From Elusimicrobiota bacterium (GTDB lineage: Bacteria > CG03 > SLGR01 > PWQF01), in contig PWOI01000107.1 of the NCBI GenBank assembly GCA_003557485.1, positions 1 through 6,044 of the forward strand: a stretch of DNA of 6,044 nucleotides. The letters are read 5' to 3'. How positions within the stretch are numbered: position 1 is the stretch's first letter; the number at the start of each line of letters is the position of its first letter. Below the pieces are notes generated by a model, which was not told the DNA's origin, ran no database searches, and was given only the letters and a program-made list of their open reading frames with translations. The translations under genes were made by a program, and so were the position numbers. Positions 1-6,044 of the stretch are shown one piece after another.

Positions 1-3000
1 AAGGTATATGCAGATGTTGTGGAAGAAGCCTGGCTTACCCCGTAATTGCTTCCCCCTTTTATATATCTGGTATATCTGGTATTCGGGGTTAAATCAGTTT
101 CAACCCAGTATGTTGTCGGATCTGAAAGAACATTTAATGTTTCGTCCTCATCGTCAAATATATGGTACGCGGTTGCTCCCGGCGTAAGCTCCCAGCTCCA
201 CTTAATGGAGGTAGATGAAACCGCTATACCATCAAAATCCTCAGGCGCATCAAGCTCCTGCCATTTGTAAGTAAGGTACTCTTCAATTTCTTCTCTCTCG
301 GAATCCGACAGCGCCCTGTTATAGATTATAACTTCGGCTATATCTCCTGCCCAGCGTCCCCAGCCCCAGGGATTAGCTCCGATTCCAACAAGAAAATTTT
401 CATCTTCAATTGGCTTGATAGTTTCTGTAGAGTCTGACAGCAGACCGTCTCTCCATGCATCCAGATTCGTCCCGTCATACCTTCCGGTAAGCAGATAGGG
501 TGTATCTGCAGATACCGGTGTAAAAAATGCGCTCTGCCAGTGGCCGCTGTCATACTCAAAAGCAAATCTTCCCTGAAAACCCCCTTCCTCATCCCAGTTA
601 ACAAGAAAAACACTGTTCCAACCTACAACTATTTCAGTAGCCCTCTGACCTGCCTCTTTCGTGGACTGCATAACAATAAACGCGGTCCACTCCCCGTCCT
701 CGGGATAATCTATTTCCGGGGTTGCAAGGTAGTGGTCGGCTCCGTCAAACCTTACCGCAGGCAGGTCCTTAAATAAATTTGTTTTGTAAACCGGCCTGTC
801 GCCGGGCGTTGCCTGGGAGGCATGATGCGAGGAGCCGCTTAAATCATCCCACTGCTCAACCGGAGCATCGTCTGACAGGCCTTCTATGGAGGATGCATCA
901 AGGTGAAGCACCCTGCCGGCCGTGGTGATATCAGAAGCAGGGGTAAATGTTGAAACAAAATTTGAAAAACCTGTTTCTATTCCATCATGGTTGTAAGCCC
1001 ATACACGGAACCAGTATGTCGTTGACCTTTCAAGTTCCGGTACCAGCGCAGTTGCAGCTGTATAACCCGAATCAAAATCTACCGGAGTTGATACTGCCAC
1101 TGAAAAATTTGAATCGGTTGAATATGAAATCCCGTAAAAGGTCCCGCCGGGATTGCCGCCGTCTGCCCAGGAAAGCTCCACATAACCTATACCGACACTT
1201 GTAACTTCAAGGCTTGCAGGATCCCTTGCCCGGGTATACACCGGGTACGGGTCAGCTAACGCGGGCGCAGAGTCCCCTCCCTGGTTAAACGCCGCTATAC
1301 TGTAATAGACAGACGCAACATTTGCCGTAAGACCTTCCTGCGTATAGGATTCCTCGTCTGCAGTAAGCGTTGTAGTACCTACTTGTACATTTCCATCTAT
1401 ATCTCTTATAATAAACCCGTATTCATTATCTGAATTGTCTGTCCAGGTCCAGCTTATGGTAGTTGAAGATACAGCAGTTCCGGCAAAATCCGATGGGGCA
1501 GCCGGAGGAGCAGTCTGCCATTTATCAATAAGATATGATTCCACCTGGGCTCTTTCGGAATCATTTAGATTCCTGTCATAAATAATTACTTCCCCCACAT
1601 CTCCTTCCCAGGGACTTGTTCCTCCGGGACCGGCACCTATGCCCACATAATGCCAGGTACCGTCTTTCGGAGCCGCGGAAGCCATAGTAGAGGTAATTAT
1701 ACCATCTCTCCAGGTATGTATATTTATACCGTCATACCTTCCGGTAAGCAGATAGGGAACATTTCTAGTTACCGGAGTAAAGAAGGCACTTTCATACTCA
1801 TCATCAGTGTTTTCAAAGGTAAACCGTGCAGAGTAACCAAACTCCCCTTCTCCCCAGTTAGCAATAAAAGCGTTATCCCATTCAAATACTATTTCCGTCA
1901 CCGAGTCTGAGGGATCGTTGGGAGACTGCATAACTATAAAAGCAGTCCAGAGTCCGTCTTCGGGCTGCTCCATCTCAGTATACGGCGTCAGAAGAAACTG
2001 GTCAACCCCGTCAAACCTTACCACAGGCAGGTCATTTATAATCCCGGCCTTGTAAACAGGAGCAGTTCCCGGAACAGCGTGGTACTGGTTTCCGCTTAGA
2101 TCGTCCCACTGCGTAACCGGATCATCATCTGCAAAACTGATAGCAGTAGCGTCAAGATGAAGAAGTCTTCCGGTAAGAGGTATGTCAACCTCAAGAGTTG
2201 AAGTTGATACGGTATCTGAGAAATCACTCATTATCTCATCATTATTGTAAGCCCATACACGGAAATAGTATGTGGTTGAAGGGTCTAATCCCGCCACTAC
2301 CGACTCAGTATCTGTATGACCTTCAGCAAAATCTATCGGCGTTGAAACTGCTACGGAAAAATTAGTGTCCGTGGAATAGGAAAGCCCGTATCTTGTGCCG
2401 GCGGGGTTGTCATTGGCCTGCCAGGAAAGCTCCACCTGGGTTATATGAACATTTGTAACTTCAAGGTTTGCCGGCACTGCCGCAAGCGTATAGAACGTGG
2501 CATGGTTGGAATCAAGCGAATAATCGCCACCGTGCAAAGCCCTGGCAAATCTTCCGTAGGCGGTATTGGTAGCCAGACCCGTTTCATAGTAAAACAGGTC
2601 TACTATTCCGTCATCTATCTGGCTTGAATCAGTAGCGCGGTATATGGCGTAACTGTCGGCTCCTTCCGCTGTATCCCAGCTCCACTGGATTGAAGTAGTC
2701 GTCTGTGGATCCCCGGTAAAGTCCAGCGGAACCGGCAGGTGGGGGTTCTCCTGCCAGCTGAAGAACGGATAACTGTGCCCGTCAACTATATTCCAGGTAA
2801 AACCGACATTTACCTCTCCCCCGAGTACTGCAGTGATATCCCAGGCCGCATCCAATCCAACCGTACCGGTATCAAAAAAAGTATCCAAATCCATCATTTC
2901 TGCAGTTGTTTTGCCCGTGCCGTCGGCGCTTGACCCCTGACCGGAAGTTTCTATATACCAAAAGGAATCAGAAACAGTTGTCGCTTCATGTTTATATCCA

Positions 3001-6000
3001 ATAAGTCCCCCGACATTTGTTGTTCCTGTAACAGCGCCAACAGAATAAGATTTATATATACCTCCATGATAATCATTGTAGCCAACAAGTCCGCCAACCT
3101 TATCAACTCCTTCAACGGAACCAGTTGCATAAGAATCATTTAATCCTGATTGGTACTGTTTACCTATAAGCCCTCCCACCGCGTCAGTCCCAATCACTAC
3201 TCCGGATGAATAACTTTTTTCAACGTTTGACCAAAAATTTTCACCAATTAGACCTCCTACTCTTTCATTGCCGGTTACGGAACCTGTTGCATAGCAATCT
3301 TCCATATCCGAAACATAATGCATTCCTACAAGCCCCCCCACGAATTTGTTGCCTTCTACAGTAGCTGTGGAAGAAGAATTAAATATTTCTGCCCTATTCG
3401 CCCCATCACCAGCAATACTACCGACAAGACCCCCTGTATTTATGGTTTCACCGGTCACGGATCCCTCTGAAAAACAACCTGTTAAAATTCCCTGCTCATT
3501 CCTCCCGACGAGGCCCCCCACATTATCGCCGCTTCCGGTCACTGTAGAACTTGAATAGGAATTTTCAACCAGTGACCCTGCTTCCATAAACCCTATAAGA
3601 CCCCCTACATTCGCATTACCACTTACATTCCCGGTTACATAACAGTTTTGAATCGTGCCGGAACTGCGGCCGACCAGGGCACCTGTGAAGTCCCTTCCGG
3701 TAATATCAACATCAATAAGCCCCAGGTTGCTTATATCAGTCCCGTCGGTATAACCGAAAAGAGACTGCCATTCTGTATTATCCCTGTCTATAAAAAGGTC
3801 TTTAATTTCATACCCCTGTCCGTCAAAGTTTCCTTTAAATCTGTCTGCATCAGTTCCTATGGGTATCCATCCCTGCCCGCCGTTTGCATTTGATGATGCG
3901 TGGACATCATAACCGTCGGTTATTTCATCAAGGTCATTTGCAAGTATAAAATAATTGTCAGGGTCAGAATAATTACGGATTGCATAAAGATAATGCCAGT
4001 TCGTTATTTCATACGGGTCTTCAGATGTGCCGCTTCCACCCGGGAAAAACCATCCCTGAACACTGTCAACATAAAGATATCCGGCTCCGCTTGAATCCTC
4101 TCCTCCTGATATGCGTACCCCTACCTCTTTTACATCATCTGTATCCGTGACTGTCTGGTCCGGATTTCCTTCCCAGTCTCTCGCTGCACTAAAATCTATT
4201 GCAACTTTTGTCCAGGAACCTTTTACTAAATCAGTCCATTCATTAGATTCAAAAAACAGATAATCTTCCCCTGTTTTTACAATCATGTTGGCTGTTAAGG
4301 GTTTGTCTGGAGCAAGAGGGGCATCAGCAGGCACGTAGACCCAGCACCATAATCCCTCGTACTGACTTAAGTCAAGCGGATGGAAGAGTTCTCTTTTTAC
4401 CTCGTCATCTATTATATCCAAACCGGTATTCGGACAGGTTGTCTTTGTATCATAATCCACACTGAAGGCCAATGAATAATCACCTGCCTGTACGTGCTCG
4501 CTTGATATGAATGTCGGTCCGAAGTTGGGCAGGTAGTATTCTGTATCATCAGCTTCCCAGCCCTGGGTGCCCGTATCAAAGTGATACAGATACACACCCG
4601 TTGGTGTTTCTGATACTTTATCAGTATTAGTTGAATCAAAACTGTCTTCATTAACGGTCTTTACGACATAGTAGTACTCTATATTATTTACCAAATCAAA
4701 GTCATGGTAAAGACTTACGCCCGGGTAAGTTGTTTCATGTACCAGGTAAGTTGTACCGGCAGGATCCGATTGGCGATATATTCTATGATGGCTGCGGGTA
4801 GCGTCAATAGGATTATCCCATGAAACATCAAGCTGACCGCCGGTACCCGGATCCGTAACGGAAATATTTGTCGGCGGTTCCGGAACATTTTCGCCACCGC
4901 CGTACCAGTTGTAAAGAGTTGAGCCCGGCGAACCGGAAGGAGTGCCACCGGCGGGCTTGTTCTGCGGAGTAAACCTTTTGTAATCAAAATCGCCCTCTTC
5001 TCCGGAAAAAGGATCAGGATGCCAGTCCCACCAAAAAGCTCCTTTGATCCAGGGTTTGTCATGCAAAACACGAAACACCGACTCATAGTACCTTCTTTGC
5101 TGCTCTCCGCTGTAAGGCCTGTCATCCCTTATCTGCCAGGGCTCAAAGAATGCAGCGTCCGTAGACGTACACCCTATTTCCGGGAATATAATATCTTTGT
5201 TGCCCCAGTGGGCCCTCCAGGCTTCCAGCTCTTCTATCCACTCAGCCGCTATGACTGTAACCGTAGAGCCACGATAGTGGTGCCATCCGCCTACCGCCGC
5301 GCTTATCGGCGCTCCGTAAGTCTCCGACTCCGGATAAACAAGAGGGAAATATGCATTGACGCCGAGAACATCCAATTTATCCCAGAACATTATCTGCTTA
5401 TGCTCAGTCCAGGTGGGAGAATAGGTGGTGGAGCCCGAATAAACGGCAGTTATCTCATCAATAGTGGTATTCCACTGGTTAGTATATTCATCAAGGGCCC
5501 GCGTCATACTTCTCAGTTCCGTACCCACGCAAAACATTTCAACATTGTACTCTTCTGCCAGGGCAGCGTAGGTAGTAATAAAAGTCCGGTAATTATTAAA
5601 CCACAACCCACGGTTTGTAGGTTCTATTTCTCCGCGAAACACACCGTAGCTAACATGGTCAATATGGGGTTTAAGCATAACCTTCATACCCAGATCATGC
5701 GCCCTGTTTATCGCCCGGATAAGAGATTCATCCGTGGGTGTATATTCAGAATGCCTGTACATTGTATTGTCTGTATCATTGTCAAAATACCAGGTTACCA
5801 GAAGCGCTATCCAGTTTGCTCCTGTTGTACGCACCTGGACCAGCGAATTATCCGAAGCCACGCTGTCGAGCTCATCAAACCACCAGGAATTATAATGTAT
5901 TCCTTTCGCCCACCAGGGAACAACCGGCTGGACGCCGGATGAAGAAACCGGGCCGTCTTCATCAGAAAATTCTCCTCTGTTTTTCGACCAGTCCACAGCC

Positions 6001-6044
6001 CTGACTTTGTAATCGTAATTTGTCCAGTTTTCTGCTCCCCGGTC
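1..6044 (-). CDS. Giant multidomain exoprotein (GH113-like hydrolase + CBM-like + GLUG repeats + FnIII/LamG train), partial at both ends
   Basis: Seen: the minus strand is open from 6044 to 3 (2,014 codons, plus two bases of a split codon at the left edge), with no stop and no frameshift, and recognisable domains follow one another without a break. Domain order by local residue number: FnIII tail 1-37, GH113-like TIM barrel 44-381, FnIII 389-482, CBM-like beta-sandwich 485-665, GLUG region 667-1097, FnIII-A 1103-1187, FnIII-B 1189-1284, LamG 1286-1510, FnIII-A 1512-1604, FnIII-B 1607-1702, LamG 1706-1929, FnIII-A 1932-2014 (cut). No start codon, ribosome binding site, signal peptide or anchor can be judged because both ends lie outside. 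Cysteine is rare (about seven in 2,014), and Asp, Gly, Ser, Thr and aromatic residues are abundant, as in exported proteins. Inference: a secreted or surface-attached polysaccharide-binding and degrading protein. The frame is near certain; the overall role is moderately supported. Confidence 0.96.
3..251 (-). other. FnIII-A domain, copy 3 (runs to the window edge)
   Basis: Local residues 1932-2014. Shows APEDFDGIAVSSTSIKWSWE, AYHIFDDEDE, TTYWVETDLTPNTRYTRYIK and SNYGVSQASSTTSAYT. The domain is nearly complete: the last strand reaches the edge of the window. By the order seen in the two earlier modules, an FnIII-B and a LamG may follow outside; that is a prediction, not an observation. Confidence 0.8.
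258..929 (-). other. LamG-like (ConA-like lectin/glucanase fold) domain, copy 2
   Basis: Local residues 1706-1929. Shows RVLHLDASSIEG, PVEQWDDLSGSSHHAS, DLPAVRFDGADHYLATP, WTAFIVMQSTKE, YLLTGRYDGTNLDAWRDG, GDIAEVIIYNRALSDSER and IEEYLTYKWQ. It aligns along its full length with LamG copy 1 with only small in-frame length differences. DNA at 472-500 is identical to 1729-1757 in copy 1. Likely role: glycan binding or structural. Confidence 0.88.
939..1226 (-). other. FnIII-B domain, copy 2
   Basis: Local residues 1607-1702. Shows PASLEVTSVGIGYVELSWAD, YGISYSTDSNFSVAVSTPVD and STTYWFRVWAYNHDGIE. Nearly every core position matches B copy 1, including the acidic-aromatic F strand and the loop after it. 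At DNA level 991-1010 is identical to 2245-2264 in copy 1. Confidence 0.85.
1233..1511 (-). other. FnIII-A domain, copy 2
   Basis: Local residues 1512-1604. Starts APPAAPSDFAGTAVSSTTIS and continues with WTWTDNSDNEYGFIIRD, QEGLTANVASVYYSIAAFNQ. The ordering matches A copy 1 and the cut copy 3 (shared A-V-S-S-T-(T/S)-I with copy 3). It sits between the first LamG and the second FnIII-B and so marks the boundary of the repeat period of about 1,257 bases. Confidence 0.8.
1515..2189 (-). other. LamG-like (ConA-like lectin/glucanase fold) domain, copy 1
   Basis: Local residues 1286-1510. It shows LLHLDATAI, PVTQWDDLSGNQYHAV, DLPVVRFDGVDQFL, LWTAFIVMQSP, YLLTGRYDGINIHTWRDG, GDVGEVIIYDRNLNDSER and VESYLIDKW. 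These mark the Laminin_G_3 type of concanavalin A-like domain, where Q-W-x-D-x-S-G-x-x-x-H opens the fold and E-(V/I)-I-I-Y-x-R-x-L-x-x-x-E-R closes it. Such domains bind glycans or act structurally; no glucanase catalytic motif is evident. It pairs with the FnIII-B domain just N-terminal to it, and this pair is repeated once more downstream. Confidence 0.88.
2193..2480 (-). other. FnIII-B domain, copy 1
   Basis: Local residues 1189-1284. Strand pattern: PANLEVTNVHITQVELSWQ, YGLSYSTDTNFSVAVSTPID, then LDPSTTYYFRVWAYNNDEI. The F strand T-Y-Y-F-R-V-W-A-Y-N is a clear FnIII signature. It is highly similar to the second B copy in sequence and length, including the segment SVAVSTP. Probably a spacer presenting the LamG domain that follows. 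Confidence 0.85.
2484..2738 (-). other. FnIII-A domain, copy 1
   Basis: Local residues 1103-1187, directly after the GLUG C-cap. It shows PVPLDFTGDP, SIQWSWDTAEGADSYAIYR and TGLATNTAYGRFARAL. It belongs to the FnIII subtype built on the phrase S-I-x-W-S-W followed by L-x-x-N-T-x-Y, common in exoproteins of anaerobic candidate phyla. It is one of three A-type copies, and these have diverged much more than the B-type and LamG copies beside them. Confidence 0.75.
2754..4046 (-). repeat. GLUG repeat domain with N- and C-terminal caps
   Basis: Local residues 667-1097. The N-cap starts GGSGTSEDPYEITNWHYLYA and runs through NYFILANDLDE, GWIPIGTDADRFKGNFDGQG and SLFGYT, the usual lead-in to GLUG arrays. 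Nine VGGL(V/I)G-type units follow, their core Val (or Thr in one unit) at local residues 791, 813, 842, 870, 902, 929, 956, 983 and 1011. Spacings are 22, 29, 28, 32, 27, 27, 27 and 28. The first is degenerate (TGALVG). Each unit pairs this core with an N/D/K-S/C-Y-x-x-G-x-V-x-G strand. The C-cap has SFWYIETSGQ (W1029), GTGKTTAEMM, and ends DGHSYPFFSW. GLUG arrays are thought to form a right-handed beta-solenoid-like stack and occur in bacterial adhesins, surface enzymes and other exoproteins; their exact function is not known. Here the array probably serves as a rigid stalk or adhesive surface between the enzymatic half and the FnIII/LamG half. Confidence 0.92.
4050..4592 (-). other. CBM-like beta-sandwich domain
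   Basis: Local residues 485-665. It begins YLYHFDTGTQGWEADD, the characteristic first strand of jelly-roll carbohydrate-binding modules (Phe-Asp-x-Gly-x-x-x-Gly-Trp). It continues with SSEHVQAGDYSLAFSVDYD (the 'bound ligand sharpens into GxYSL' strand), LDLSQYEGLWCWVYVPAD, SWTKVAIDFSAARDW, EVGVRISGG and finally YLYVDSVQGW. This strand order matches families such as CBM4, CBM11 and CBM27, but I cannot decide which. C537 and C567 could form a disulphide. Inference: it binds the polysaccharide cut by the adjacent hydrolase. It could instead be a purely structural jelly roll. Confidence 0.65.
4599..4880 (-). other. FnIII linker domain after the hydrolase
   Basis: Local residues 389-482. The pattern is PPTNISVTDP, then LDVSWDNP (B-strand Trp), HHRIYRQSD (C strand), and IEYYYVVKTVN (F strand with the Tyr-x-Val core), ending before SETPTG. 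This is the usual order of bacterial FnIII domains found between catalytic and binding modules of secreted glycosidases. It carries no catalytic residues and probably sets the distance between the barrel and the CBM-like domain that follows it directly. Confidence 0.8.
4902..5915 (-). other. GH113-like TIM-barrel glycoside hydrolase domain (putative beta-mannanase)
   Basis: Local residues 44-381. Seen: a barrel start WWAKGIHYNSWW; the strand-2 segment GANWIALLVTWY (W85); PTDESLIRAINRAHDLG followed by KVMLKPHID (H127); CVGTEL with E176; GVNAYFPL with Y232; IIFPEIGC with E289; and GAFWWDWHPDP (W338, W339, D340). The family pattern (GH113 and related GH-A clan barrels) puts the acid/base Glu after strand 4, here E176, and the nucleophile Glu at the end of strand 7, here E289. 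Both are in the expected context, so the domain looks catalytically competent. At about 338 residues it is slightly longer than I expect for the family, with extra sequence between Y232 and E289. Characterised GH113 members are beta-1,4-mannanases, hence the substrate guess. An uncharacterised sister family with another beta-linked substrate is possible. It follows an FnIII tail and precedes FnIII and CBM-like domains, a normal arrangement for a secreted CAZyme. Confidence 0.78.
5937..6044 (-). other. C-terminal part of an FnIII domain (cut by the window edge)
   Basis: Local residues 1-36 contain NYDYKVRAVDWSKNRGEFSD, the typical end of a fibronectin type III domain: the F-strand pattern Y-x-Y-x-V-x-A followed by the final strand. 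The rest of the domain lies beyond 6044. A short linker ending in VQPVVP joins it to the hydrolase. It shows that the protein has at least one more domain N-terminal to the enzyme, so the catalytic domain is not at the mature N-terminus. It is probably a structural spacer. Confidence 0.75.

Follow-up and report, generated by a model that had tools for sequence, protein, structure and literature searches.

A GH113 barrel, a CBM27/59-like domain and a GLUG array in one giant chain from an Elusimicrobiota bacterium

The DNA analyzed here (the window) is a complete contig of 6,044 bp, PWOI01000107.1, from an Elusimicrobiota bacterium (assembly GCA_003557485.1) whose source genome bin measures 2.07 Mb and is 86.6% complete. 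A single minus-strand frame spans positions 3 to 6044, stop-free over 2014 amino acids and open at both ends, and represents an inner part of one giant modular protein of greater length. Its domain order is an fn3 tail, a GH113 barrel, an fn3-like domain, a mannanase-type galactose-binding domain, a GLUG array, and then fn3 domains with two LamG_3 domains. The architecture is real and unusual; it is assembled from known parts, and we did not find a GH113–GLUG chain elsewhere among the genomes examined. Judged from sequence, the protein is probably an exported, and probably cell-surface, multimodular β-mannan hydrolase. The barrel would be a retaining glycosidase cutting β-1,4-mannosidic bonds, in which E176 would act as the acid/base and E289 as the nucleophile. 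The domain related to carbohydrate-binding modules (CBM) 27 and 59, one fn3-like linker away, would hold the barrel on a mannan-type polysaccharide, and the GLUG, fn3 and LamG domains would together make up a long stalk outside the cell that adds further contacts to glycans. As in sister proteins of the genome, the missing N terminus would carry a signal peptide and the missing C terminus a tail for type IX sorting.

The chain shows a GH113 barrel, reportedly almost always a lone domain (PMC9032380), built into what is probably a giant extracellular protein with a predicted mannan-binding module. For GH113 enzymes outside the Firmicutes it offers a concrete hypothesis on the substrate, together with a testable GH113–CBM27 partnership, and it suggests type IX-like export of giant proteins active on glycans in a phylum that is small and poorly known.

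The barrel and the mannanase-type binding domain

A first-pass annotation had placed a GH113-like barrel, a CBM-like domain and a nine-unit GLUG array in one chain at 2754-5915, which corresponds to residues 44-1097 of the 2014-residue frame. Pfam searches and the single frame confirmed this arrangement. The proposed FnIII domain that separates barrel and CBM can be recognized by eye; Pfam did not score it as fn3 when it was searched alone. The central features are as follows.

3..6044, minus strand: single open frame of 2014 amino acids, both ends open (open reading frame reading)
4929..5915, minus strand: GH113 catalytic TIM barrel, residues about 44-372 (Pfam PF22612 and phmmer)
5517..5519, minus strand: E176, predicted acid/base, aligned with AaManA E151
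5178..5180, minus strand: E289, predicted nucleophile, aligned with AaManA E231
4059..4592, minus strand: mannanase-type galactose-binding domain, CBM27/CBM59-like, residues 485-662 (PF21253, family profile and fold model)
2931..3749, minus strand: GLUG array of nine motifs (PF07581 and anchors)

The profile search placed the barrel within the hydrolases, as the first-pass annotation had it. Residues 62-346 matched PF22612 (GH113) at 178.2 bits (cut-off 27; E 3e-52; profile positions 15-273 of 289), and phmmer matched the barrel to AaManA (4cd6, E 1.4e-28) and to 7dv7 (E 9e-22). Both glutamates are kept, and they align with E151 and E231, which we take to be the catalytic residues of AaManA. 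AaManA (4cd6/3civ) and BaMan113A (7dv7) thus share the barrel family and both aligned glutamates with the window protein, but their PDB chains have about 320-350 amino acids, whereas the window barrel lies inside a chain of >2000. The barrel also keeps the columns that are invariant among five diverse GH113 members, some of them related to active clade 1 enzymes. In a tree of 88 GH113 domains, it fell outside a mainly Bacteroidota group and in the half that contains the Firmicute mannanases. Equated by taxonomy, that Bacteroidota group corresponds to clade 5; clades 1-4 include active members, and for clade 5 no activity has been shown (PMC9032380).

On sequence evidence, the CBM-like domain belongs with the mannan-binding CBM27/CBM59 modules. 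As an isolated segment, residues 487-661 matched Mann_GBD_bact (PF21253) at 37.5 bits (cut-off 27). The segment had no PDB match as a single-sequence query, and a profile was needed: one built from the window segment and 14 stand-alone homologues matched only mannanase binding modules in the PDB at E <= 0.01, namely 1pmh (E 2e-8), 1wky (E 6e-6), 1of3 (E 4e-4) and 6tn6 (E 0.009). An AlphaFold model of moderate quality (pLDDT 62, pTM 0.66) had the mannanase 1wky as its top Foldseek match. The CBM27 profile was unmatched by the window alone, and we therefore regard the domain as a relative of CBM27 and not a member. Two tryptophans of the segment, W12 and W140, are fully conserved in A2/A3, and their match to ligand-contact residues is putative. 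CBM59, and CBM27 as a characterized module, are described as mannan binders (PMC3617157, PMC13357471). The Bacillus sp. JAMB-602 mannanase (1wky, CBM59) and the CBM27 entries 1pmh/1of3 resemble the window protein in pairing a barrel with a related mannan-binding beta-sandwich, but their barrels are of other families and the CBM similarity is distant (profile E 2e-8 to 4e-4).

GH113 and its partners in other genomes

In the Omnitrophota, the same two families occur as separate genes. Strong GH113 matches were present in 40 of 384 genomes, and 39 of these 40 also have the binding-domain family, versus 6 of the 344 others (Fisher p 8e-46, a value that overstates independence because the genomes are related). 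The sole exception, G319, had first been counted as a long Omnitrophota GH113 and was rejected as a gene transfer agent (GTA)/phage baseplate protein (GTA_TIM, 230 bits), so that the binding domain accompanies true GH113 in 39 of 39 Omnitrophota genomes. The baseplate protein (C56, L143 8912-12139) exceeds the GH113 cut-off via a related TIM barrel and is a source of false GH113 calls.

The Omnitrophota GH113 genes often number two or three per locus, interspersed with small secreted proteins that consist of the binding domain only, and adjacency to such stand-alone genes recurs across loci. One locus, L019 (4248-13679), contains three GH113 genes, two CBM27-like secreted proteins, GH94, GH116, a ROK regulator and a sugar ABC transporter. 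It and other Omnitrophota loci are candidate mannan-utilization clusters, and their ABC uptake and phosphorylase genes give them a catabolic appearance; GH94 is also present in a known mannan polysaccharide utilization locus (PMC13357471). These clusters (L019, L021, L029 and others) hold the window's enzyme and binding-domain families side by side, but as separate genes of about 200-600 codons and without GLUG. The window chain covalently joins a GH113 and a CBM27-like protein that are separate neighbors in an Omnitrophota sugar-uptake locus. This favors a common function of the two on a single substrate, for which mannan is the simplest candidate. In a genome of the same genus as the window's (G012, the window's own genome being G000), one chain (C82, L141 4730-8026) combines two mannanase-type binding domains with DUF5060 and a GH5-like domain, and its locus includes a PorV-family gene and sugar ABC transporter genes.

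In the great majority of GH113 proteins the catalytic domain stands alone, and the one named modular exception carries CBM8 (PMC9032380). The first-pass statement that GH113 enzymes are mostly single-domain agrees with this survey and with the frames around the barrel in 80 relatives, which have 329-642 amino acids except in a Pantoea giant, a Planctomycete giant and one frame of 729. Strong GH113 frames reached at most 624 amino acids in Omnitrophota and, above 100 bits, at most 689 in Chloroflexota; Planctomycetota had two longer ones, of 1818 and 1078 amino acids, neither with GLUG. Among the 16 genomes examined from the window's small phylum, one other GH113 exceeded the cut-off, in a 620-amino-acid frame. 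The window's genome has no GH113 besides this barrel, and the family is missing from most genomes of the phylum. No GLUG array was present in the fetched loci of GH113 relatives, and a second GH113–GLUG chain was absent from about 177 GH113-bearing genomes of four phyla; Bacteroidota and Verrucomicrobiota were sampled shallowly. The first-pass view of the combination as a candidate for an undescribed architecture stands for this set. The literature text available in full-text search held nothing for GLUG with mannanase and described no GH113–GLUG fusion under GLUG with glycoside hydrolase.

The modular exception, from Ardenticatena sp., resembles the window protein in fusing GH113 to a CBM, but that CBM is of another family and no GLUG, fn3 or LamG is reported (PMC9032380); related Ardenticatenia GH113 frames have 554-564 amino acids. 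Clade 1 enzymes mostly have no signal peptide (PMC9032380). The Pantoea giants (L013, L045) likewise carry GH113 within a giant, probably exported protein, but with DUF3060 and other regions, without CBM27 or GLUG, and in a type I rather than a type IX context.

The GLUG array, the stalk and the export route

PF07581 (Glug) matched eight stretches at 89.6-111 bits (cut-off 20.5). Nine G[AG]L[VI]G anchors, at residues 788, 814, 843, 871, 903, 930, 957, 984 and 1012, are mostly spaced at 27-28 amino acids, and the self-similarity of the array peaks at lag 28 (0.158 versus a shuffled maximum of -0.46 +/- 0.08 over 500 shuffles), so that "nine units" is a fair description. A single-sequence model of the array was nearly all-beta at pLDDT 42.5, too poor for fold definition or structure search, and a single-sequence PDB search of the array gave no match. 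Residues 741-805 had a weak, sub-cut-off Pfam match to Peptidase_M26_N. The N-terminal domain of IgA1 protease has a beta-helix (PMC7695701), and that sub-cut-off match alone links it to GLUG.

Two other giants bear on the role of the array. One, in the same-genus genome (G012 C98), has GLUG arrays, fn3 and Mann_GBD, with no GH113 recognized in its assembled part, and residues 680-1103 of the window protein matched it by blastp at 41% identity. The other, in the window's own genome (G000 C16, L099 2-3331), is open at both ends and has two GLUG arrays flanking a chitin-type CBM_5_12. Both resemble the window protein in their fn3 and CBM modules, with GLUG regions 31-48% identical to its own, but no GH113 domain was recognized in either. 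Because GLUG arrays also occur in such enzyme-free giants with other CBMs, they look like a reusable, generic scaffold in this lineage rather than a specific adhesin, and we prefer a role as spacer or rod. For the same reason, the first-pass proposal that the GLUG array does the adhering is unsupported. Where the sequence speaks to substrate binding, it favors the CBM27/59-like domain and, on family grounds, the LamG domains.

The region C-terminal to the stretch first annotated, residues 1104-2012, reads fn3, fn3, LamG_3, fn3, fn3, LamG_3, fn3. The remaining features of the chain are as follows.

5931..6044, minus strand: fn3-like tail ahead of the barrel, residues 1-38, N terminus missing (by eye; unscored by Pfam)
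4596..4877, minus strand: fn3-like linker domain, residues 390-483 (by eye; alone not significant in Pfam)
3690..4058, minus strand: lead-in to the GLUG array, residues 663-785, homologous to its counterpart in G012 C98
2736..2930, minus strand: post-GLUG segment, residues 1039-1103, kept in sister giants (blastp)
2193..2735, minus strand: two fn3 domains, residues 1104-1284 (PF00041; first below cut-off on its own)
1545..2177, minus strand: LamG_3/concanavalin-like lectin domain 1, residues about 1290-1500 (PF13385; below cut-off alone, counted with the second copy in the whole-protein search)
945..1502, minus strand: two fn3 domains, residues 1515-1700 (Pfam; each below cut-off alone)
297..887, minus strand: LamG_3 domain 2, residues about 1720-1916 (PF13385, 41.7 bits, cut-off 27.6)
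9..248, minus strand: fn3 domain, residues 1933-2012, protein C terminus missing (PF00041, 26.7 bits, cut-off 25)

GC content along the contig is fairly uniform (0.43-0.52) and the two longest direct repeats without gaps measure 90 and 54 nucleotides at 78%; a chimeric assembly is therefore not indicated. The ends of the window overlapped none of the contigs fetched, and the protein was not extendable.

Export through a type IX-like route is likely, given that the genome has a candidate SprA homologue, PorV/PorQ-family genes and sister giants with tails of the type IX secretion system (T9SS) type. The sister giants that share fn3 modules have, by eye, apparent N-terminal signal sequences, and several end in T9SS- or FlgD-type-like tails; one scored 28.0 bits as a T9SS type A tail (cut-off 23), the others falling just below the cut-off. 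PorV/PorQ-family genes adjoin several of these giants, the best at 182 bits (cut-off 90). The phylum's other GH113 protein (G008) has a T9SS type A tail at 24.2 bits (cut-off 23). Surface display of the window protein is plausible on this genomic context. A 1731-amino-acid frame in the window's genome (G000 C42, L134 4986-10178) resembles the SprA T9SS translocon, here in a small uncultured phylum; it aligns with SprA in collinear blocks at 199.6 bits, 0.4 bit under the cut-off of 200 (E 5.5e-59).

Alternative explanations and other GH113 contexts

Several observations weigh against an exported mannan hydrolase. No signal peptide or sorting tail is visible in the window protein, both ends of which lie outside the contig. 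In the tree, the immediate neighbors of the barrel, which are an Actinomycetes bin, Pantoea and Streptomyces, are weakly supported (80-90, unstarred). Some GH113 enzymes outside clade 1, including a clade 3 Streptomyces enzyme, were inactive on all substrates tried (PMC9032380), and that Streptomyces enzyme may be close to the window barrel. The GH94 and GH116 partners at L019 could equally act on a gluco-configured glycan, and the only GH94 of the window's genome is in a 1770-amino-acid frame with apparent membrane segments first, not in a mannan locus. That frame (G000 C130, L150 985-6294) is perhaps a glucan synthase-type protein.

We think it rather unlikely, but the most credible of the alternatives, that a GH113-fold exported glycosidase acts on the cell's own exopolysaccharide or another beta-glycan, as in biofilm remodeling, and not on environmental mannan. 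Clade 5 GH113 proteins show no mannanase activity, lie near GT2 genes and have been proposed to act in polysaccharide construction (PMC9032380); a Streptomyces relative adjoins GT2, wecB and polysaccharide deacetylase genes, and a Pantoea relative adjoins a type I exporter. However, the fused binding domain groups with mannan-binding CBM27/59, the Omnitrophota loci look catabolic in their ABC uptake and phosphorylase, and the barrel lies outside the mainly Bacteroidota tree group. A more doubtful proposal, the stronger form of the first-pass interpretation, is that the GLUG array itself attaches to a partner cell or host surface, on which the barrel would trim glycans that contain mannan. Elsewhere, annotations list GLUG proteins as potential adhesins, for example a sortase-anchored one of Bacillus cellulosilyticus (PMC3617157), and the window genome encodes several giant modular proteins, but the same-genus arrays without a recognized enzyme and with different CBMs are in keeping with a generic scaffold; the protein showed no receptor-binding domain of a known type, and nothing points to a partner cell.

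About equally improbable is a single-molecule apparatus in which a GLUG solenoid stalk would dock the cell on a mannan-bearing substrate or partner cell, the GH113 barrel, held by the CBM27-like domain, would cut the attachment glycan, and type IX-like display would serve an arrangement undescribed in this lineage. That the barrel has lost catalysis and persists as a lectin-like remnant within a giant structural surface protein seems very improbable. Its position inside a very long structural chain would fit, as would its being the lone GH113 of its genome in a phylum where most genomes have none, but both catalytic glutamates and the invariant family columns are kept.

A mobile origin of the barrel was also considered and is unsupported, its best plasmid or phage relatives being just 22-33% identical; viral contigs gave no match to patterns derived from the barrel or the GLUG array. 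Neither long Planctomycetota frame is a GH113–GLUG case. The 1818-amino-acid frame (L088 1608-7061) joins ADP-ribosylglycohydrolase, GH43/GH130-like and GH113 segments, carries no GLUG and is putatively a single gene, and the 1078-amino-acid frame (G416) seems rich in arginine at both ends, is probably a high-GC frame exceeding its gene and has no GLUG. The Pantoea GH113 giants (L045 2292-9833 and L013 1-4836) carry DUF3060 repeats, the P. ananatis protein having 2514 amino acids, and on a plasmid of Pantoea sp. JZ2 the GH113 giant adjoins a type I secretion permease/ATPase. On conjugative megaplasmids of Enterococcus faecium (L016 2830-6723), a GH113 gene adjoins a carbohydrate ABC transporter and an IS3 transposase.

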